A stretch of 64,000 bases of DNA from Planctomycetota bacterium (GTDB lineage: Bacteria > Planctomycetota > Phycisphaerae > Phycisphaerales > SM1A02), in NCBI GenBank assembly GCA_022574595.1, contig JACZRS010000011.1:62001-126000 (forward strand). The letters run 5' to 3'. A program made the translations under genes and the position numbers. The notes below the pieces were generated by a model. The model worked only from the letters and a program-made list of their open reading frames with translations. It was not told the DNA's origin and did no database searches. How positions within the stretch are numbered: position 1 is the first letter of the stretch; the number at the start of each line of letters is the position of its first letter. This document shows, in pieces, positions 3,262 through 63,472 of the stretch.

Positions 3262-3981
3262 CTAGCGAGCCGGCAAGTCCCGTCCCCAGCCACATTCGGG
3301 GCAACCTTGCTCAAACTTGCCGAGCAGGTTGTATCCGCAGGTGGGACATTTGCCGATGTATCGTCTCGCCTTTTTCACGTTGGATCGCATCCAGCCGCCG
3401 ACCACACCTATCACTAAATAGCACAGTAAGGCATAGGTCAGTGTATTCACCAAAAATCCTAGTGGTTGAACTCTGTAAGGAATCCCGCGCCCGCAGCTCC
3501 TGCAGTTCGGTATCTTGAACTCAAAGGCAAGCACTGCCTGCTCATGGTAATGAATTACGCTTTGCCTCGTACCTGGAAGTGTGAGCTTCCATATTGAGTT
3601 GTCGACCTGGACTGGCCGCTGATCCGCTCTTGTCCAGTACGAATACTCGAAAGTCGGCAGCGGTAAGCCGATTCTTCGCTGAAAAGATTGAATGATAATG
3701 CCATTGCTATTGGCTGAACTACCAGTTTCATCTATCTCGATGTTTTGTAATTGTACCTCGGCCATACCGATTTTCTGCGATGTGCTGCGCGCTGTCGGCT
3801 CACCAACTGCTTCCGATGGCCTGTGCGCCAACCACCAATCTCGATCATTCTCGGTAACCGGATCGCGCGGCGAGAAGCTTGTTGGAGGATCCCACCACCA
3901 TGCAATTGACCAAGCCACGGAGATATTAACAATCGCGCCGAGGAGAAGAAACAATCCAAGTTTGAACATGCGGCGTTTCAC
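3262..3981 (-). CDS. Membrane protein with C-terminal zinc ribbon, paralogue 1
   Basis: A 239-residue protein with an N-terminal membrane segment (FKLGLFLLLGAIVNISVAW), a polar extracytoplasmic middle part, a second membrane segment near residues 180-200 (ALLCYLVIGVVGG) and a C-terminal zinc ribbon with four cysteines (CPTCGYNL...GCPECGW). This layout is common in planctomycetes; the function is unknown. The start is GTG at 3981-3979; the paralogue at 29432-30109 has the same GTGAAACG start and nearly identical bases just upstream, which supports this choice. A 158-bp two-hairpin element lies 58 bases upstream, as it does for that paralogue. Confidence 0.75.
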   Translation of the reverse strand: MKRRMFKLGLFLLLGAIVNISVAWSIAWWWDPPTSFSPRDPVTENDRDWWLAHRPSEAVGEPTARSTSQKIGMAEVQLQNIEIDETGSSANSNGIIIQSFQRRIGLPLPTFEYSYWTRADQRPVQVDNSIWKLTLPGTRQSVIHYHEQAVLAFEFKIPNCRSCGRGIPYRVQPLGFLVNTLTYALLCYLVIGVVGGWMRSNVKKARRYIGKCPTCGYNLLGKFEQGCPECGWGRDLPAR

Positions 3982-4039
3982 GGTAATAAAGTATACGCTA
4001 ACAATATAGATTGATGGATAGATAAAGGGCTACATCGCC

Positions 4040-4197
4040 ATTTAGCCCGCCGTGAATACACGGCGGGCGGAGAGTGTGCGAATTTCAAATAACGTGCGAA
4101 CTAGCAGCAAACATTGGCATTCCACGGTTAATTGTGGAATCGAACATGACAGAGTTTACGGGCGCTCCGCCCCAGGTGTATTCACCTGGGGCTAAAT
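4040..4197. repeat. 158-bp two-hairpin element, copy 1
   Basis: The element begins ATTTAGCCC and ends GGGCTAAAT, a perfect terminal inverted repeat. Each end is a perfect 10-bp hairpin: GCCCGCCGTG/CACGGCGGGC around AATA (4045-4068) and GCCCCAGGTG/CACCTGGGGC around TATT (4169-4192). Read inward, both ends share the frame ATTTAGCCCxxxGTGAATACAC. The interior holds a further 7-bp hairpin, ATTCCAC/GTGGAAT. A homologous copy lies at 30164-30322. It lies immediately upstream of a zinc-ribbon gene and could be a REP pair (BIME), a MITE or a structured leader RNA. Confidence 0.8.
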
Positions 4198-4316
4198 AGT
4201 TGTTGGCTGAAGAATTGTTCTCACATTCTGGACAAACATCCTACCGATATCAGCCTAAGACCGTAGAATGTAATCCCGTAGAAGATTTAGGCCATTCAAA
4301 ACTTGGAGAAAACACC

Positions 4317-5501: not shown

Positions 5502-7019
5502 ATGAAGAATATGATAAAAAATCGAATACAAAAATTTTGCAGCAATTGCTCTTTTCTCATTTTCGTAGCTGCTGCTATGGTTTTATCACCCGCCGCACTT
5601 GCTGCAGGGCAACAATCACAACGCCACGTAAGTCATGTGGATAAATCGGGGCAATGGGTAGAAATTGAAACAGCGATCAATCAGCTTAGTAGATCTAAAA
5701 CTCCAAAGGCAACCAGTCTTTTACCACCGGGCGTTATTTGGCAAGCTGTCGATGCAATTTCAATTACCAATAGTGTTTGTGTTTCAGATACAACAAATGA
5801 GACATGGGTTGGTCACAACTTGAATTCCGAAAGGCTGGCATACCACGAGACTACCGGCGATGGTACAGCAATCTTTGATTACCTTTTGACTAACCCAAGT
5901 ATGGTAGCAGTTGCATCAGCGGAAAATGTATCGCTTGGAGTTGTACTCGAGCGACATGGCGCAGGAGGCTCTACTGTTTACGCTTTTAATGAGGCGAACG
6001 GTAATGTTCCTATATGGACTTATGATTTCGCGGTCAATTACAACTTTAACAACATACGCAACATAGATGTAGCAGCTGATGGCCAGGTGGTAATTGCTGC
6101 TGCTAGAGATACGATGGCTGGAACTTCATTAGTTGTAATTCTCGATGGCGCAACTGGCGCGGAACTTGACTCACTAACCGTTAATGCAGGCGTAGGTGGC
6201 GTTGAACTTAATGACAGCGGGACACGAGCGGTATTAACAGCAGGTGCTACAGTCCTTGTCATCGATACTACTACAATGAATACACTTTTTTCCTTTGCCG
6301 TATCAGGTGCAGGTGGTTTCCAGCGCATATCTAGAGATGGAACAACGGTAGCTGGGGGTGGATTCAACTGCTTCGTATATCAGGAAATTGCAGGCGTTTG
6401 GACTCAAATATATTCACTCACACATGCTAGTAACTGGTTAGGAAATGGCTTAGCGCTTTCAGCGAACGGCGATACATTATTTCTAGTTAGTTATAACTAT
6501 GCCACCGGTTATCTGACTCTAACTTACCGAGTGATCGACCTTGTTAATAATATTGAAATTGCTCAGTTTATTACCCAAGGTGCGGGCGGTCTTCAAGATA
6601 CAGTAATTCAATCCCAAGCGTCCGCTGATGGCGAAACCTTAGCTGTTATTTCTTGGGGTACACAAGATAACGTACATCCAGAAGTGCAGATCTTTGATCG
6701 TGATCTAAATCTCATTGGATCGATAGATACGCCTGGTTCACCATTTGGTCTTGATATGTCAAGCGATGGACAATTTGTGGTTGTTGGCAGCAAATCTGTG
6801 CATGCCAATATAAGCGGTAATGGAAGCAATACTTATGCATACCGTGTGTTCTCAGCTTGCCCGTGGGATCTTAATGGGGATGGCAGCATAAGCACATTGG
6901 ACCTATTAGCGTTGTTTGCCCAATGGGGTACAGCAGGATCAGCAGATTTTGACGGGAGCGGCGTTGTCGGCACCAGCGATTTACTTATCCTATTCGCCAA
7001 TTGGGGACCGTGTCCATAA
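5502..7019 (+). CDS. Secreted beta-propeller-like protein with dockerin-like tail
   Basis: A 505-residue exported protein. The ATG at 5502 precedes a basic region and hydrophobic signal (FLIFVAAAMVLSPAALA); GGAGG lies 15 bases upstream, a rather long spacing. The body has repeating WD40/YVTN-like strands (for example NIDVAADGQVVIAAARD, LALSANGDTLFLVSYN, DMSSDGQFVVVGSK), suggesting a beta-propeller. The last 55 residues are the paired dockerin-like tail with two EF-hand-type loops (DLNGDGSISTLDLL and DFDGSGVVGTSDLL), flanked by cysteines (CPWD...GPCP). The tail is shared with four other genes in this window, and probably mediates surface display or assembly. Confidence 0.8.
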   Translation: MKNMIKNRIQKFCSNCSFLIFVAAAMVLSPAALAAGQQSQRHVSHVDKSGQWVEIETAINQLSRSKTPKATSLLPPGVIWQAVDAISITNSVCVSDTTNETWVGHNLNSERLAYHETTGDGTAIFDYLLTNPSMVAVASAENVSLGVVLERHGAGGSTVYAFNEANGNVPIWTYDFAVNYNFNNIRNIDVAADGQVVIAAARDTMAGTSLVVILDGATGAELDSLTVNAGVGGVELNDSGTRAVLTAGATVLVIDTTTMNTLFSFAVSGAGGFQRISRDGTTVAGGGFNCFVYQEIAGVWTQIYSLTHASNWLGNGLALSANGDTLFLVSYNYATGYLTLTYRVIDLVNNIEIAQFITQGAGGLQDTVIQSQASADGETLAVISWGTQDNVHPEVQIFDRDLNLIGSIDTPGSPFGLDMSSDGQFVVVGSKSVHANISGNGSNTYAYRVFSACPWDLNGDGSISTLDLLALFAQWGTAGSADFDGSGVVGTSDLLILFANWGPCP

Positions 7020-9952: not shown

Positions 9953-11200
9953 GTGTTTCGCAATACGAATCTACATCTCATAACTGTCGGAGTTATACTA
10001 GCAATAACTAATACAACTCTAGGCGGGGACGATATTAATAGTGAATTGATCGGGACATGGGATGGCTTCGGCGGTACATATGGCGATGTGTGGGGCGATG
10101 GATCTTTTGCTTATCTTGGACACTTTGGATCTTCAAGTGTAAGTATCGTTGATATCAGTAACCCCGCAATGCCAGTTGGAGCTGTATATCAACTTCCACC
10201 ACCCAATCAAGGTGCATCGGCTCAGGATTTGAAGGTAGCAGATGGTATTTTATTTATAGGCCTTGGAGGTAGTAGTAGTAACAGTGTTCATATTGTTGAC
10301 GTACGTGATCCGCTAAATCCCCAAGCAGTTGTAGATATTGATATTTCTGGTTTTACCGCGGTTCATAATGTCTTTTATGATAATGGTTATCTTTATATGG
10401 TTGATAGCGGTTCGACGCGCGTAGGCATCATTGATTTAACCCAACTTGATCTTGATAATCCTCCCGAAAATCCGATCACGAATGCAAAATGGATAATGCA
10501 AGATATTGGGTCTTCGTTCGTGCATGATATTACTGTTGTTGATGGGCGTATGTACGCATGCGCTTGGGATAGTGGGCTATGGATATACGATGTTACAAAT
10601 GTCGCTAATGTGATGCCTAACTTTATTGGTTCCACACCGGATGGCGGGAATAATACTCATGCAACATGGCCAACCGCTAATGGTGATTATGTTGTAACAG
10701 GTGAAGAGCGACCAGGCGGCGGAATAAAAGTTTATCGAATAACTGATAACGGCGGTTCGCTTGATTTGGAACTGACAGATTCACTGCAATTGCCGGAAAA
10801 CGAAGCCTTCAGTGTGCATAATCAAGTCATAGATGGCTATCGACTATATAATTCTTGGTACGCAGCGGGTTTACTTGTTCATGACATTGATCCTAAGACA
10901 GGCTTGATAACCTTGTTTGCGACATACCAGACACCCGGCTCGAATTGGGGGGTATATCCCTTACTTGGTCAGGATAATGTATTGCTATCTGATATGGGAA
11001 ACGGCCTTGCGATTGTAAGAATAGCAGCCGATGTTGCAGGCGATCTTGATGGTGATGGTTCGGTTAATACAGTTGATCTACTTATCTTGTTCGCCAATTG
11101 GGGGCATTGCTCAAATTGCAAGGATTGTCCTGCGGATCTTAATGGAGATTGTATTGTGAGTACCGAGGATCTTCTCTTGTTGTTTAGCAATTGGGGGTGA
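9953..11200 (+). CDS. LVIVD-repeat propeller protein with dockerin-like tail
   Basis: A 415-residue secreted protein starting with GTG (9953), with CGGAGG seven bases upstream, then a signal peptide (LITVGVILAITNTTLGG). The body has LVIVD-type blades (SVSIVDISNPAMPV, SVHIVDVRDPLNPQ, RVGIIDLTQLD) typical of choice-of-anchor-B-like surface proteins. The C-terminus carries two dockerin-like loops ([21 protein letters not shown] and DLNGDCIVSTEDLLLLFSNWG) separated by a Cys-rich linker (CSNCKDCPAD). The second loop has Cys in place of Gly, a small departure from the other tails in the window. Confidence 0.8.
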   Translation: MFRNTNLHLITVGVILAITNTTLGGDDINSELIGTWDGFGGTYGDVWGDGSFAYLGHFGSSSVSIVDISNPAMPVGAVYQLPPPNQGASAQDLKVADGILFIGLGGSSSNSVHIVDVRDPLNPQAVVDIDISGFTAVHNVFYDNGYLYMVDSGSTRVGIIDLTQLDLDNPPENPITNAKWIMQDIGSSFVHDITVVDGRMYACAWDSGLWIYDVTNVANVMPNFIGSTPDGGNNTHATWPTANGDYVVTGEERPGGGIKVYRITDNGGSLDLELTDSLQLPENEAFSVHNQVIDGYRLYNSWYAAGLLVHDIDPKTGLITLFATYQTPGSNWGVYPLLGQDNVLLSDMGNGLAIVRIAADVAGDLDGDGSVNTVDLLILFANWGHCSNCKDCPADLNGDCIVSTEDLLLLFSNWG

Positions 11201-28778: not shown

Positions 28779-29423
28779 TTACGCTTTTACCTCATCGCGT
28801 TTCCACCCACATTCCGAGCAGCCACTATCTCGATTGCCTCGCAGGTCGTAATCGCATTGTGGGCAGAACTTATATTCTTTGCGTAATCGCCTTGGAGTTC
28901 GACGAATTATGGTTGAAACAATGGCAATCCCGAGGCTGTGGATCGCTATATTTAGAATAAAGCGAAACCATAACACGTTATAGGGAATTAGTTGGTAATC
29001 TATAGAATCAAGTATAACTGCTCCATAAAGTTGGATCTGATCCTTACCTTGAAGCATATCGGGATATATGCCTGCGCCTCGGACGAACCTAATTGGCCAG
29101 CCTACTTCAAGCTCACGAACTTGAAATGGGCCAGTAAACGTTCCGACATTTTTGTTATCGCTAAGCAAGCTCTTTCCAGCAAATCCTATTAAGCTATTTG
29201 CAGATACTGGAGATCTATAGCGATTCCATAGATCAATACTTTGAGAATCAGATAACACAGTAGACTCTTTGCGTCCGAATGAGTGGGTAATTTTTAAACA
29301 ACCTGCAAACGCCAGACAAATGTTAATCAAAGTTGCAGCACTCAATAGTAAGATCATACGTAAAAGCCATGAGCGTCTGTACATCGTTATTTGTTCGATG
29401 AAGTAATGATCTATTTGTTTCAC
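28779..29423 (-). CDS. Membrane protein with C-terminal zinc ribbon, paralogue 2
   Basis: A 214-residue protein with the same plan as the genes at 3262 and 29432: an N-terminal membrane helix (MILLLSAATLINICLAFAG), an extracytoplasmic middle, a second helix around residues 155-175, and a C-terminal four-cysteine zinc ribbon (CPQCDYDL...GCSECGW). The start may be the ATG at 29423 or one at 29384 (MYRRSW), which aligns better with the paralogues. It lies 8 bases downstream of the next paralogue and probably shares its transcript. Confidence 0.75.
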   Translation of the reverse strand: MKQIDHYFIEQITMYRRSWLLRMILLLSAATLINICLAFAGCLKITHSFGRKESTVLSDSQSIDLWNRYRSPVSANSLIGFAGKSLLSDNKNVGTFTGPFQVRELEVGWPIRFVRGAGIYPDMLQGKDQIQLYGAVILDSIDYQLIPYNVLWFRFILNIAIHSLGIAIVSTIIRRTPRRLRKEYKFCPQCDYDLRGNRDSGCSECGWKRDEVKA

Positions 29424-29431
29424 GAATTGCT

Positions 29432-30109
29432 TTATAAGTGCATACTATTGTCTCCATCATCCCGTTGCCAACCACATTCTGGGCAGCCGCCCTCGGAATT
29501 ACCCTGCAGATCGTAACCACATTTGATGCACAATCCGCGCTTACGGCGGATCACTCTGCGTGCTGTGAATGGGCCGAATGTCAGAAGCCAAAGAAATACA
29601 GCGTAGAAGATCGTGTTGATTGCGAATCCCGGCCAGATGGGGCGTAACGGGATAGTTAATGGCACTTGACGCCAACCCGCTTCAACCTGGCTCTGCCCCA
29701 CTCTCAAGCCGCCATGCACTTGGCACTCGGGTGAATTAACGTAGTTGTAATCCTCTAATGCAGACCACAACGATTGCATAGGCCAGCCTCTAGCATCAAA
29801 AGTGTTTATCCTAAATTTCCTAAAATCCGTTTGATCGATCCATCGCGGCAGTAAGTCAAAGAGATATGGCGATTCCGGAATACCGAAGAAATGCTCGCCC
29901 GCCGATCCATGTACAGTATTTACTTTGGCTCCAAATGATTTGTATTCCGTCACATAGTAAAAAGGAAAGCCGCTATCATCGCTAGCTAACACGACAGCGC
30001 TTTCCTTTGCGTATGGTTTGGACCATAGCGCGCACCCCCATGCCACAACAACATTAACTATGGCGCCGAGGAGAAGGAATATTGCGAGTTTGAAAACAAA
30101 CCGTTTCAC
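29432..30109 (-). CDS. Membrane protein with C-terminal zinc ribbon, paralogue 3
   Basis: About 225 residues from the GTG at 30109 (VKRFVFKLAIFLLLGAIVNV), a start chosen because paralogue 1 has the same GTGAAACG start and matching upstream bases; a longer frame reaches 30163. The layout is membrane helix, outer domain, membrane helix, and zinc ribbon (CIKCGYDL...GCPECGW). A copy of the 158-bp two-hairpin element starts 55 bases upstream, just as for paralogue 1, so gene and element look duplicated together. Function unknown. Confidence 0.75.
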   Translation of the reverse strand: MKRFVFKLAIFLLLGAIVNVVVAWGCALWSKPYAKESAVVLASDDSGFPFYYVTEYKSFGAKVNTVHGSAGEHFFGIPESPYLFDLLPRWIDQTDFRKFRINTFDARGWPMQSLWSALEDYNYVNSPECQVHGGLRVGQSQVEAGWRQVPLTIPLRPIWPGFAINTIFYAVFLWLLTFGPFTARRVIRRKRGLCIKCGYDLQGNSEGGCPECGWQRDDGDNSMHL

Positions 30110-30163
30110 GGTAATTAAGTATATGCCACGATAAGTCTTTTGGCATTGAAAACGATTGCGCAC

Positions 30164-30322
30164 ATTTAGCCCGCCGTGAATACACGGCGGGCGAGGAACG
30201 TACGAATTTCATATAAGGTACGGAATCGCAGAAAACTTTGGCATGCTGCGGTTCTTATTGAACCGATGGTGACAATGCTTGCGGACGTGCTTCACCCCAG
30301 GTGTGTTCACCTGGGGCTAAAT
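30164..30322. repeat. 158-bp two-hairpin element, copy 2
   Basis: This copy has the same outer frame as the one at 4040-4197: ATTTAGCCC at one end and GGGCTAAAT at the other, the identical left hairpin (30169-30192) and a right hairpin CCCCAGGTG/CACCTGGGG with loop TGTT (30295-30316). The interior aligns along its length (for example ACGAATTTCA and TTGGCAT) but has diverged. An internal hairpin, CGGTTC/GAACCG, occurs near the place where copy 1 has ATTCCAC/GTGGAAT. Confidence 0.8.
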
Positions 30323-30349
30323 GGGTGTGATGCGCTCAACCGTAGTAGA

Positions 30350-33248: not shown

Positions 33249-34847
33249 ATGTTCGTGGATTCATTAATTCTAGCATTAGAAATTAATCCACTCCATGCAG
33301 GTATTGCTGCAAGTGTTGGTGCCATAGCAGGAGTTGTGCTGGGCTGGGTTATACATGGCATCATTATGGGCAACACCATAAAGCGTGCCCGTAGTGAAGC
33401 GGCTCAGTTAAAACGCGCAGCCGCTGCTGAAGGTGAGGCTGCCAAGCAGCGAATTGAACTCGAAGCTGAAAAAAAATCACGCCAACGCAGAGAGGCTATG
33501 GATAGTGAGATTGCAGGAGCGCGCGACGAAATTCGTCAAAACCAAGCTCGCCTGGCAAAACGCGAAGATAATCTTGATCAGAAAATAGATAACTTAGTTA
33601 AGCGTGAAAATAAGATAGAGCAACGGGACGCTCAGATCCAGCGCAAAGAATCAGAGCTTGTCAATAAAACGCAGGAGATTGAGAAAACTTTAACAGATGT
33701 TAGAACTCGCCTCAGTGAAGTCGCAAGCTTGACCGAAGAGCAGGCAAAGGAACAACTCCTTGAAGAAGTGCGTCATGATACTGAACATGAGGCAACCATA
33801 CTCACACAAAGAATAATTGAAGAAGCGGAATCTGAAGCCCGAGGCCGGAGCCGCGAAATTACGCTGCAAGCAATTCAGCGATACGCAGCCGAACACGTTG
33901 CAGATACAACCGTTCGATCAATCCGCATTACTTCTGATGAAATGAAAGGCCGAATCATTGGGCGTGAAGGACGAAACATCAGAGCCTTAGAGCGCGCAAC
34001 TGGCGTAGACATACTCGTTGACGATACACCGGGCGTAATAGCCGTTTCATGCTTTGATCCTATTAGAAGAGCTATCGCAGGAGAGGTTTTACAGAAACTC
34101 GTCGCCGATGGCCGAGTTCATCCCGCCCGTATTGAAGAGGTGGTTGAGCAGGTATCAAAAGAAATGTCTGAGCGAATACTAAAGGCTGGCCGAGATGCTG
34201 TGATTGAAGCGGGTATTCGTGGGCTTCATCCAAAGATCGTCGAAGCGATTGGGAAATTACATTTCAGAACAAGTTACGGCCAAAACGTCTTGCGCCACTC
34301 CATGGAAGTTGCGTATTTATCTCAGATCATTGCAGATCAACTAGGACTAAATGGATCCATAGCACGGCGGGCAGGATTCCTGCACGACATAGGTAAAGCT
34401 ATGGACCATGAAATGGAAGGAACCCATCCAGTTATTGGCGAAGAATTTGCACGCAAGTATGGTGAAAAATCTGAAGCGGTACTTAACGCAATTGTTGGCC
34501 ATCATGGAGATGTACCAGCTACTACACCTTATACGCCAATTGTAATGGCTGCCGATGCACTAAGTGGCGCTCGGCCCGGTGCTCGCCGAGAGTCTATGGA
34601 AATGTACATCAAGCGCTTAGAAAGTTTGGAAGCGATTGCTATGGAACAGCCTAACGTCAAACAGGCCCATGCAATTCAAGCCGGCCGTGAGGTGCGAGTA
34701 ATTGTCGATGCCGCCAAGGCTGATGATGCCCAGGCCTTTGAAATAGCGCGAGCTATTGCTAAGAAAGTCGAAGAGGAAATGACATTCCCAGGTGAGATCA
34801 AAGTGACTGTTTTGCGTGAAGTGCGAGCGGAAGCAATAGCGAGATGA
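33249..34847 (+). CDS. rny: Ribonuclease Y
   Basis: An endoribonuclease of about 532 residues that starts mRNA decay. It has an N-terminal membrane anchor (AGIAASVGAIAGVVLGWVIHG), a long coiled coil (to about residue 200), a KH domain (MKGRIIGREGRNIRALE) and an HD domain with FLHDIGKAMDHE and IVGHHGD. The ATG at 33249 puts the anchor at the N-terminus; GTG codons at 33222 and 33225 are alternatives. The stop codon TGA (34845-34847) is also the first three bases of the 14-nt repeat array that follows. Confidence 0.92.
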   Translation: MFVDSLILALEINPLHAGIAASVGAIAGVVLGWVIHGIIMGNTIKRARSEAAQLKRAAAAEGEAAKQRIELEAEKKSRQRREAMDSEIAGARDEIRQNQARLAKREDNLDQKIDNLVKRENKIEQRDAQIQRKESELVNKTQEIEKTLTDVRTRLSEVASLTEEQAKEQLLEEVRHDTEHEATILTQRIIEEAESEARGRSREITLQAIQRYAAEHVADTTVRSIRITSDEMKGRIIGREGRNIRALERATGVDILVDDTPGVIAVSCFDPIRRAIAGEVLQKLVADGRVHPARIEEVVEQVSKEMSERILKAGRDAVIEAGIRGLHPKIVEAIGKLHFRTSYGQNVLRHSMEVAYLSQIIADQLGLNGSIARRAGFLHDIGKAMDHEMEGTHPVIGEEFARKYGEKSEAVLNAIVGHHGDVPATTPYTPIVMAADALSGARPGARRESMEMYIKRLESLEAIAMEQPNVKQAHAIQAGREVRVIVDAAKADDAQAFEIARAIAKKVEEEMTFPGEIKVTVLREVRAEAIAR

Positions 34848-34886
34848 GTCTTGAGGGGTGAGTCCTGAGGGGTGAGTCTTGAGGGA
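34845..34886 (+). repeat. 14-nt repeat array, left arm
   Basis: Three consecutive units TGAGTCTTGAGGGG, TGAGTCCTGAGGGG and TGAGTCTTGAGGGA, followed by a degenerate one to 34900. The array is the inverse of the right arm at 35317-35382, so the two could pair and loop out the gene between them. The first unit overlaps the rny stop codon. Confidence 0.92.
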
Positions 34887-34920
34887 TGAGATAAGAGAAG
34901 AATTATGAGTAGGAGACTCC

Positions 34921-35286
34921 GTGGCTAGAGATCATCGCAAGCTTAGAGCATTTGAACTTGCGGATGAACTTGCTTTAAGCGTTTATCAACGAACGAGGGT
35001 TTTTCCAGATGATGAGCGTTATGGTTTGACTTCACAGATCCGTCGAGCTGCAGTTTCCGTTGCTGCAAATATAGTCGAAGGTGCTGGCAGGGACAGTGAA
35101 CCTGATTTTGTGCGTTTTCTTCACATAGCCCTTGCTTCGTTAAGGGAGGTAGGCTACTACATTGATCTAGCTCGACGCCTCAATTATCTTGGTTCTACAG
35201 AGGCGGACAGCCTCAAGAAACAGTACAATGAGACAGCAAGCGTTCTCCATGGTCTAATCAAATCTTTCAAGCGATCCCCAAAGTAG
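34921..35286 (+). CDS. Four-helix-bundle protein (23S rRNA IVP/S23 family)
   Basis: A 121-residue protein starting with GTG at 34921 and preceded by AGGAG. It matches the four-helix-bundle family of 23S rRNA intervening-sequence proteins: KLRAFELADELALSVYQ, YGLTSQIRRAAVSVAANIVE and FLHIALASLREVGYYIDLARR. Relatives also include the Avd proteins of diversity-generating retroelements. Here it is not in rRNA but between rny and efp, bracketed by inverted arrays of a 14-nt repeat. That arrangement looks like a small mobile or once-mobile cassette. The molecular function of the family is unknown. Confidence 0.88.
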   Translation: MARDHRKLRAFELADELALSVYQRTRVFPDDERYGLTSQIRRAAVSVAANIVEGAGRDSEPDFVRFLHIALASLREVGYYIDLARRLNYLGSTEADSLKKQYNETASVLHGLIKSFKRSPK

Positions 35287-35316: not shown

Positions 35317-35382
35317 CTCACCCCTCAAGACTCACCCCTCAAGACTCATACCTCAGGACTCACCCCTCAAGACTCAGGACTC
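35317..35382 (+). repeat. 14-nt repeat array, right arm (inverted)
   Basis: Units CTCACCCCTCAAGA, CTCACCCCTCAAGA, CTCATACCTCAGGA, CTCACCCCTCAAGA and a partial CTCAGGACTC. They are the reverse complement of the left-arm unit. The last partial unit contains AGGA at 35376-35379, eight bases before the efp start codon, and appears to be the ribosome site of efp. Confidence 0.92.
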
Positions 35383-59888: not shown

Positions 59889-61434
59889 ATGATGTACGCA
59901 TACTCAGTATCAACAAAAAGTTCAGTCGTCGTCGCCGTAATCTCGCTTGCCGTGGTCATGAGCGGACAGTATGCCCAGGCCCAGCCCGGCACTGTGCTGT
60001 CACACCAGAAGATTAGCTCCACCGATGGTAACGGACCCCCGCTGGGTAACGACGATCTCTTCAGCCGCGTGGCCTCACTGGGCGACCTCGACGACGACGG
60101 TGTGGGCGACTTGGCCGTAGGGGCATTCCTCGATGATGACGGGGGCTTAAACCGCGGCGCGGTGTGGATCCTCTTCCTCAACACCGACGGCACCGTCAAA
60201 TCCCATCAGAAGATCAGCGACACCCAAGGCGGCTTCACCGGCATACTGGATGATGGCGATGTCTTTGGCGTCGCGGTGGCCTCGCTGGGCGACCTCGACG
60301 GCGACGGCGTGGGCGACTTGGCCGTGGGGGCACTCGATGACGATGGGGGCTTCAATCGCGGCGCGGTGTGGATTCTGTTCCTCAATGTAGACACAAACGG
60401 CCGTGACCCCGTCGTCACCGTCAAGTCCCACCACAAGATTAGCTCCACGTCAGGCGACTTCCCGCCCGGCGCGCTGGACGATGGCGACAACCTCGGCTTT
60501 GTGGGCTCGCTGGGGGATCTCGACGGCGACGGTGTGGGTGACCTGGCCGTAGGGGTATGGCGAGACGACGACGGGTGTGCTAAACAGAACCCAGACTGCG
60601 ACCGCGGCGCGGTGTGGATCCTGTTCCTCAACACCAACGGGACGGTCAAGTCCCACCATAAGATTAGCGACACATCTGGCGACCTGCCCCCCGGCGCGCT
60701 GGCTGATGGCGATGGCTTCGGCGCTTCGCCGACCTCCCTGGGTGATCTCGACGGCGACGGGCCTAGCGTGCTCGCCCTGGCCGTGGGGGCAGCTGGCGTT
60801 GATGGGGGCCCCTCCGTCTTCGGCGCAGAGTGGATCCTGTTCCTCAACGCGAACGGGACGGTCAATTCCCACCATAAGATCAGCGACACATCTGGCGACC
60901 TGCCCCCCCACGCGCTGAATCTTGACGATGACTTCGGCGTCTCGGCGGCCTCGCTGGGTGATCTCGACGGCGACGGCGTGGGCGACCTGGCCGTGGCGGC
61001 ATTCGCCGATGACGACGGGGGGGGGCTTCAACCGCGGCGCGGTGTGGGTGCTGTTCCTCAATACCAACGGAACCGTAAAGTCCCACCAGAAGATCAGCGA
61101 CACCGAGGGCGGCTTCAAAGGCATCCTGGATGATGGCGATCACTTCGGCTGGGTGACTTCGCTGGGTGATCTGGACGGCGACGGTGTGGGCGACCTGGCC
61201 GTGGGGGCCCAGAACGATGACGACGGGGGCACCAACCGTGGTGCAGTCTATATTCTGTTCCTCGACGGCATTTGTCTGTGGGATCTCGACGCCAACGGCT
61301 CCATTGGCACAAGCGATCTACTTGAACTCTTTGCTCAATGGGGCACAGCAGGTCCAGCCGATTTCGATGGCAGCGGAGCTGTCGGCACAAGTGATCTACT
61401 AATCCTCTTCGCCAATTGGGGGCCGTGTCCGTAG
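59889..61434 (+). CDS. Secreted FG-GAP repeat protein with dockerin-like tail, frameshifted at G9
   Basis: A secreted protein read from the ATG at 59889, with AAGGAGG upstream and a signal peptide ([18 protein letters not shown]). About seven integrin-type FG-GAP repeats follow, each with [15 protein letters not shown] and [11 protein letters not shown]. The frame is broken at a run of nine G (61017-61025): with eight G (or five, as in sister repeats) translation continues as [14 protein letters not shown] into a last repeat and the dockerin-like tail, ending GPCP at 61434. As given, the frame stops near 61133. This is a phase-variable tract, a real mutation or a sequencing error. The gene is G+C-rich. 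Confidence 0.8.
61017..61025 (+). repeat. G9 homopolymer at the frameshift
   Basis: Nine consecutive G in the sixth or seventh FG-GAP repeat. Corresponding positions of the other repeats have five G. A change to eight restores the reading frame to the dockerin-like tail. Confidence 0.9.
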
Positions 61435-61864: not shown

Positions 61865-63472
61865 ATGTGCGGCATTACCAGGTTATTGGCGTTCCGAGCT
61901 AGCTTCATGGCGATGCTGTTAATTACTAGCCATGCCGTATACGCAGGTTCGGTTTTGTATGTCGATGACGATGCTACTCCGGGAGGAGATGGCCAATCGT
62001 GGGAGACCGCCTATCGTTTCCTCCAAGATGCGCTGGCCAACGCAAACAGCTTTATGAAAATTCATGTTGCGCAGGGGACGTATCGTCCCGATCGCAACGA
62101 AGCTAACCCGCAAGGCTCTGGCGATCGTGAAGCACGCTTTCACCTGGTCAACGATGTAGCCCTACAAGGCGGATACGCTGGGATTGGTGCGGACGATCCA
62201 GACGCGCGTGATATTCGCTTGTATGAGACGCTACTCTCCGGTGATCTGCTGGGCGATGATGGAGACGATTTCGCAGACAACGACGAGAATAGCTATCACG
62301 TCGTCATCGGCGGCAACAATGCAGCAGTCCTGTCTGGTTTCACCATCACAGCGGGCAACGCCAATGGTGGGCAACTACCTTATATAGGCGGTGGTATGTG
62401 GGCAGGAAATCATACCACTATCGATTGTATTTTTATTGGAAATACAGCTGGGGCCGGAGGAGGCTATGGAACTCTAACACAGTCCAATCACTCAACGTTT
62501 TTGCGTTGCAATTTCGTAGAAAACCATGCGACAGGCAGAGGAGGAGGTGTCTACTTGGACTTCTCGGGGAATACCGCAACGCTCATCGATTGCAAGTTCA
62601 TCCGGAATTCAGCCGGAGAAATTGGTGGAGGCGCGTGTTGCTACCTCGACGCCTCACTTACGCTCATTAACTGTGACTTCATAGGCAATTCTGCTGGGCT
62701 TGCAGGAGGCGGTTGTTGCAACGTGTTCTCAGGCGCTTCGATGACCCTGATTAACTGCCGCTTTGTCGGCAATACGGCCGGTCAAAACGGTGGTGGCATC
62801 GGACTTGACATCGGACCCCTCCAAGTAATTGGTTGCACTTTTCATGCAAATACCGCAGCCGATGGAAATGCGATTGCATTTTTCAAATGGGTTGCAAATC
62901 CGATCTATCCAAAGAGCGAAACTGTTCTTAAGAACGCATATTTTACTATTGCAAACTGCATCCTTCGAGACGGTGGCGATGAATTTAGCTTTCCATGCGA
63001 AGACAATTATAGTATTACGTATTGCAATGTGCAAAACGGATGGGAAGGCGAGGGGAACATAGATGCCGACCCTCTATTCGTTGACCCTCTTGGGCCAGAT
63101 GGGATACCGGGAACGATAGATGATGACCTTCGCCTTCAGCCCGGCTCCCCCTGTATAGACGCTGGTGATAACACAGCCTTGCTCAAAGGTATCCTTACTG
63201 ATCTCGATGGCAACCCGCGCTTTGTGGATGACCCAGCTACTAAAGATACAGGCTTCGGAATTCCGCCAATCATAGATATGGGTGCGTATGAGTATCAGGT
63301 TAAATCGTTATGCCCTTGGGATCTTGACGGCTCTGGATCCGTCGCTACCGGCGATCTGCTGATACTCTTTGCTCAATGGGGTACAGCAGGACATGCAGAC
63401 TTCGATGGGGATGGCACAGTTAGCACAAGCGATCTATTAATACTCTTCGCCAACTGGGGGCCGTGTCTTTAG
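61865..63472 (+). CDS. Secreted parallel beta-helix protein with dockerin-like tail
   Basis: About 535 residues from the ATG at 61865, which has AAGGAG upstream and a signal peptide (FRASFMAMLLITSHAVYAG). It opens with VLYVDDDATPGGDGQSWETA, a common start of planctomycete beta-helix proteins. Right-handed beta-helix coils follow, with CNFVENHATGRGGGVYLD, CKFIRNSAGEIGGGAC, CDFIGNSAGLAGGGC and CRFVGNTAGQNGGGI. The end is a choice-of-anchor-like strand region and the dockerin-like tail (DLDGSGSVATGDLLILFAQWG and [21 protein letters not shown]). These folds often bind or cut polysaccharides; no catalytic residues can be picked. Confidence 0.85.
   Translation: MCGITRLLAFRASFMAMLLITSHAVYAGSVLYVDDDATPGGDGQSWETAYRFLQDALANANSFMKIHVAQGTYRPDRNEANPQGSGDREARFHLVNDVALQGGYAGIGADDPDARDIRLYETLLSGDLLGDDGDDFADNDENSYHVVIGGNNAAVLSGFTITAGNANGGQLPYIGGGMWAGNHTTIDCIFIGNTAGAGGGYGTLTQSNHSTFLRCNFVENHATGRGGGVYLDFSGNTATLIDCKFIRNSAGEIGGGACCYLDASLTLINCDFIGNSAGLAGGGCCNVFSGASMTLINCRFVGNTAGQNGGGIGLDIGPLQVIGCTFHANTAADGNAIAFFKWVANPIYPKSETVLKNAYFTIANCILRDGGDEFSFPCEDNYSITYCNVQNGWEGEGNIDADPLFVDPLGPDGIPGTIDDDLRLQPGSPCIDAGDNTALLKGILTDLDGNPRFVDDPATKDTGFGIPPIIDMGAYEYQVKSLCPWDLDGSGSVATGDLLILFAQWGTAGHADFDGDGTVSTSDLLILFANWGPCL

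Follow-up and report, generated by a model that had tools for sequence, protein, structure and literature searches.

The analyzed window comprises 64,000 nucleotides from an uncultured planctomycete (G000:C2:62001-126000), whose genome, in the following the own genome, has a size of 4.09 Mb in 31 contigs. Two copies of an element of about 155 nt are located in this window, each upstream of a gene of a zinc-ribbon (ZR) family (Table 1). Each copy consists of two 10-bp hairpins, whose stems pair perfectly or nearly so around a loop of 4 nt; the two are inverted relative to each other and carry their TTAG feet outward. In the predicted fold of both copies, the two hairpins stay separate, each with 10 bp (z -6.4 and -5.4). 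The single hairpin is made up of the TTAG foot, a covarying stem and a GTGAAYACAC core. With this inverted pair of REP-type hairpins, the element is REPIN-like and, as such, a miniature mobile DNA. A previous sequence-only reading had placed the element 55–58 bases upstream of two paralogous ZR genes with the same start and a TATACTT-type sequence. Both genes were indeed found downstream, with 60 nt (copy 1) and 56 nt (copy 2) between the proximal TTAG foot and the start codon; both start with GTGAAACG, and TATACTT begins 14 nt before the start. The 56-nt leader of copy 2 is common to seven other element-bearing genes.

Table 1 Features of the two element copies in the window and of the RAYT-like gene elsewhere in the own genome.
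Feature	Position	Strand	Remark
REPIN copy 2, inverted doublet of REP hairpins	30163..30323	-	ends CATTTAG to CTAAATG
Proximal REP of copy 2	30166..30192	+	TTAGCCCGCCGTGAATACACGGCGGGC
Distal REP of copy 2	30294..30320	-	TTAGCCCCAGGTGAACACACCTGGGGT
Leader of copy 2, 56 nt	30110..30165	-	TATACT at 30118-30123
ZR paralog of copy 2, GTG start	29432..30109	-	membrane segment, variable middle, CxxCGYDL...CPECG
Second, diverged ZR paralog	28779..29423	-	directly 3' of the 29432..30109 gene; no own element; start uncertain
REPIN copy 1	4039..4198	-	second window copy of the element
Proximal REP of copy 1	4042..4068	+	
Distal REP of copy 1	4169..4195	-	
Leader of copy 1, 60 nt	3982..4041	-	TATACT at 3990-3995
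ZR paralog of copy 1, GTG start	3262..3981	-	
RAYT-like gene	G000:C31:23777-24259		between full-length elements L004 and L007

Two other kinds of repeats were observed in the window. Inverted TGAGTCTTGAGGGGTGAG-type repeats (34845-34890 and 35331-35376) flank an ORF of 121 aa (34921-35286), which presumably resembles four-helix-bundle proteins. In addition, a coding segment of the form DxDGxGxxxxxDLLxLFxxWG, which we take to be dockerin-like, is repeated at 6857-7018, 11037-11198, 61272-61433 and 63310-63471.

A dispersed hairpin family

A blastn search of the own genome with the 155-nt copy resulted in 37 matches, 11 of which were full length, all at E 5e-15 or better. In 8/11 full-length copies, the start of a ZR-family gene follows 56–61 nt downstream in the same orientation. 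The three others are located on the far side of a transposase-like gene (L007), 12 nt after a ZR stop codon (L009) and upstream of a gene that we take to be thymidylate-synthase-like (L011). Searching for single hairpins, with the TTAG foot as a requirement, revealed a dispersed multi-copy palindrome with 43 sites in the own genome, compared to zero for a reversed-pattern control. The inverted doublet is a common unit of this family, as 24/43 sites form 12 doublets.

Among genomes of the same family, in which none of the relatives drawn has the genus code of the own genome, the hairpin pattern is present in 9/101 (5/45 genera), and the reversed control again gave zero. Among 392 genomes of the phylum it was found only in the own genome, and one weaker single-hairpin match occurred in a genome from another family of the order (G051). 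The resulting list of 133 hairpin sites required stem complementarity; we repeated the stem test without this demand, and all four free positions were still paired at 101/106 sites. Moreover, 27 distinct stem arms are 96% paired, compared to 60% when re-dealt. The aligned flanks before the stem read CATTTAG or AATTAG, not GTAG, so that the canonical GT[AG]G foot is absent from these flanks.

A second hairpin subclass ends with ...GGGGCTTCTT instead of ...GGGGCG. Its sites (G000:C13:113980, C17:214465, C28:26875, C30:20147, C30:56050 and others) are mostly single and not located near ZR genes.

Furthermore, some REP feet coincide with stop codons. At 23/133 REP sites, the TAG of the foot is the in-frame stop of a mechanically called ORF of at least 100 codons (G000:C20:60800, C20:58968, C31:22849, C21:106197 and 19 further), compared to 19/665 of the remaining TTAGs within these loci (P 6e-9). 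Two ZR genes end at a REP foot in this way (C20:60800 and C31:22849), as does a 484-codon ORF before the C20 element. This excess may reflect either a TTAG target or the tolerance of insertions at stops.

A RAYT-like gene between hairpin doublets

The own genome encodes one RAYT-like (REP-associated tyrosine transposase-like) protein, and its gene is located between two doublets. In the relative G036, the gene for a 'TMTTYGTWLRGD...WHVH...RYVERHN' protein likewise stands between two hairpin doublets, and the own-genome protein is its 68%-identical ortholog; the same doublet-gene-doublet layout is present on contig QEVJ01000024.1. TTAG-type hairpins flank the transposase-like loci L111, L112, L114, L115 and L117, and also L152. 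Hairpins lie on the 5' side of L113 and L123, and diverged hairpins accompany L116 and L118. The closest transposase group (at least 57% identity, with the next match at 39%) occurs in 7/9 hairpin genomes, but only in 1/92 others (Fisher P 1.6e-8). As exceptions, G023 and G115 contain hairpins without a close transposase, and G063 has a close transposase with hairpins of another make.

The HUH motif (WHVH) and the tyrosine are conserved in these proteins, with H86, H88 and Y141 invariant in an alignment of the closest group that left out L115 (one stop) and L152. The tyrosine motif reads Y(V/I)E(R/K)HN, with YVEAHN in one row, and thus differs from the class 2 signature Y---NP. A profile comparison matched Y1/RAYT-like proteins of the own genome with a probability of 97% (E 3e-11), with HUH and Tyr aligned; three of those proteins (L031, L034, L036) themselves score 44–54 bits with NF047646, for which the cut-off is 80. 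The transposase stays below the curated cut-offs, reaching 14–15 of 23 bits with PF01797 and 15–16 of 80 with NF047646. A profile search against the PDB returned no solved Y1 transposase; its hits were all to unrelated ribosomal proteins, none better than E 0.25. An AlphaFold model from two sequences was of no use (pLDDT 35). No TTAG-type hairpins were found beside Pfam-detected Y1 transposases, since the transposase in question has diverged too far to be recognised by Pfam; it surfaced only among the neighbours of the relatives' hairpins. In the terms in which PMC3116915 and PMC6006769 describe such systems, the element is a REPIN with a RAYT-like transposase. By analogy with these systems, the transposase would move the TTAG REPs, probably as single-stranded DNA.

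Element and leader as one unit, uncoupled from the gene body

The ZR family comprises about 30 full-length paralogs, which are conserved at both ends but hypervariable in between and in many cases stand in tandem arrays; its profile gave 104 matches in the own genome. Using a mechanical six-frame motif, we found a ZR motif within 1 kb of 26/43 hairpin sites in the own genome, compared to 3/90 sites outside it (eight hairpin-bearing relatives and one outlier genome). Whether the element lies mainly beside unrelated genes, which the sequence-only reading had raised as an objection to its own proposal, is therefore answered differently for the two samples: it does elsewhere, but not in the own genome. 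Since the eight ZR-linked copies share their descent, this enrichment does not represent eight independent events.

Next, we compared the eight element-bearing genes with each other. Their proximal and distal REPs are 99% and 95% identical, the centre of the element 69% (28% when shuffled), the leader 61% (33% when shuffled), the first 75 coding nt 75%, the gene middle 34% (27% when shuffled) and the last 165 nt 55%. In contrast, no similarity is seen over the 60 nt that precede the element (30.5% versus 28.9% when shuffled), and the blast alignments begin no more than about 10 nt away from the REP foot. With a conserved leader and no similarity upstream, element and leader therefore form one unit with a sharp 5' edge. 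Across the eight genes, the similarity of the centre correlates with that of the leader (r 0.76).

This homology bears on the alternative that REPINs inserted independently at targets upstream of ZR genes. The proximity to ZR motifs in the own genome is in line with such targeting, and, as REP feet prefer stop codons, some target choice exists. However, the leader is homologous in 8/8 cases, always 56–61 nt long and in one orientation, and the relatives lack a preference for ZR genes, which makes this explanation very unlikely.

The sequence-only reading had also considered that gene and element were duplicated together. In its strict form, REPIN, leader and whole ZR gene would have been copied each time, followed by fast divergence of the gene middle. 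Element, leader and the first 75 coding nt can indeed be aligned in 28/28 pairs, L009 keeps about 20–25 nt of leader after the element as if its gene had been lost, and an element-gene-element layout is found at C10:281-282 kb. However, genes with more similar elements are not themselves more similar (r -0.04 for the first 75 coding nt and -0.35 for the gene middle). The loci L044 and L045 (the same as L004 and L002) have elements identical over 155 nt and leaders of 83% identity, but unrelated gene bodies; the nearest relative of the L044 body is the element-less L048, to which it is about 80% identical from around codon 12 on. In a protein tree of 27 of the 30 best family loci (without L049 with its internal stop, the partial L064 and L067, which has no N-terminus), the element-bearing genes do not form a clade; their distribution requires 6 changes, and 115/500 shuffles were as low in this weakly resolved tree. 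Plain co-duplication is hence somewhat unlikely in our view. What holds of the former claim is the joint duplication of the element and its leader of about 56–61 nt, whereas its extension to the whole gene does not. The sequences of L044, L045 and L048 indicate that element and leader are exchanged between paralogs.

A promoter-like box between element and gene

Among the 30 best-scoring family loci, TATACT at -14 occurs only in the eight element-bearing ones. This promoter-like box lies between element and gene. Based on 125 genes from 300 kb of the own genome and the window, TAnnnT shows a peak at -15 to -10 before starts (19 seen versus 7.9 expected, P 5e-4), beside a clear Shine-Dalgarno peak in the same genes. 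Judged by this position, TATACT is probably the promoter of a leaderless mRNA; transcripts would then start close to the first codon of the ZR gene, and the element would precede the promoter. In the ZR arrays L046-L056 and L141-L150, from the own genome and relatives, we observed a TAGAAT box 12–15 nt before the next start. In these other ZR genes the box takes about the position of TATACT and often shares bases with the stop codon of the gene before.

Alternatively, the element could be a 5' leader RNA (riboswitch-like or a thermosensor) regulating the ZR family, the second option of the sequence-only reading. The fixed distance and orientation at eight genes and the stable, covarying hairpins would fit such a role. 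However, the promoter-like box is located downstream of the element, and the hairpins are dispersed and flank the transposase-like gene and many unrelated genes. Element and leader are missing from 22/30 best-scoring family loci, the leader was absent upstream of all nine ZR genes inspected in relatives, and the 11 element loci gave no Rfam match at E 1. With just 3/90 outside hairpins near a ZR motif, we found no conservation upstream of the same genes across species, and a family-specific leader RNA is thus unsupported. We consider this option highly improbable.

A further explanation is that selection keeps the element as an upstream transcription insulator or bidirectional terminator shielding the ZR promoter. 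In favor of this, 71/133 hairpins are located within 45 nt 3' of a stop (ORFs of at least 100 codons), and the hairpins of the leader-linked copies are far more conserved than the centre. However, the stem sequence is not followed by a T-tract, and functional REPs would also show such hairpin identity. We regard a selected insulating role of the hairpins as rather unlikely to explain the arrangement.

Proposed origin of the REPIN-leader block

We consider it likely that a REPIN was caught upstream of a probably leaderless promoter and that the two spread together as a 5' module, through duplication as well as recombination. The RAYT-like HUH transposase, whose gene lies at another place in the own genome, would presumably move the two inverted REP hairpins with outward TTAG feet in single-stranded form, and one such REPIN would have lodged just upstream of a ZR-gene promoter. 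The block of REPIN, promoter leader and first codons could then have spread over at least seven places: the ZR family would have undergone tandem and dispersed duplication, and paralogs would have recombined within the shared REPIN, leader and 5' coding stretch, with crossovers close to the start codon, while the gene bodies diverged or were exchanged. We infer that homologous recombination, rather than transposition, moved the REPIN-leader block.

Comparison with known REP systems and implications

The arrangement resembles the REPINs/BIMEs of Pseudomonas and Escherichia coli as described in PMC3116915: an inverted REP doublet with conserved ends and a less conserved middle is dispersed outside genes and linked to a transposase gene that has these repeats on its flanks. 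Compared to that description, it differs in the TTAG foot, the low number of 12 doublets and the fixation of 8 of them before one gene family. With the RAYT/TnpA_REP REPtrons, as presented in PMC6006769, it shares HUH and Tyr, a single gene flanked by REPs and a patchy distribution. Following the class descriptions given there, class 2 has Y---NP and a GT[AG]G foot instead of Y---HN and TTAG; class 3, which includes Planctomycetes, has Y----Q and a CnGA foot, and these features are not matched either. PMC3733652 reports GTAG- and CGTC-tagged REP families, of either type also from Planctomycetes among other phyla, which are likewise short palindromes and in some cases lie beside tyrosine transposases; 'TTAG', however, is absent from its main text. 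In open-licence papers on REPIN/RAYT with Planctomycetes or Phycisphaerales, we found no report of a TTAG REP. The TTAG foot and the Y---HN motif depart from the published GT[AG]G and Y---NP.

As a far-reaching extension, which we regard as quite doubtful, REPIN and promoter leader might represent a portable 5' module, by which a REP system has been drawn into shuffling the expression of a gene repertoire. The REPIN ends would mark the edge for transposase cuts or recombination, by which different members of a large and hypervariable family of membrane proteins would each receive a ready-made promoter and start codon, with REP insertion favoring TTAG at stop codons. Altogether, these data add a TTAG-footed REP/RAYT-like lineage, in these samples almost wholly within one planctomycete family, and give a case of a REPIN spreading as part of the 5' end of a gene family. 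Consequently, the system offers a test of whether REPINs are mere genome parasites or partners in remodelling promoters and multigene families.
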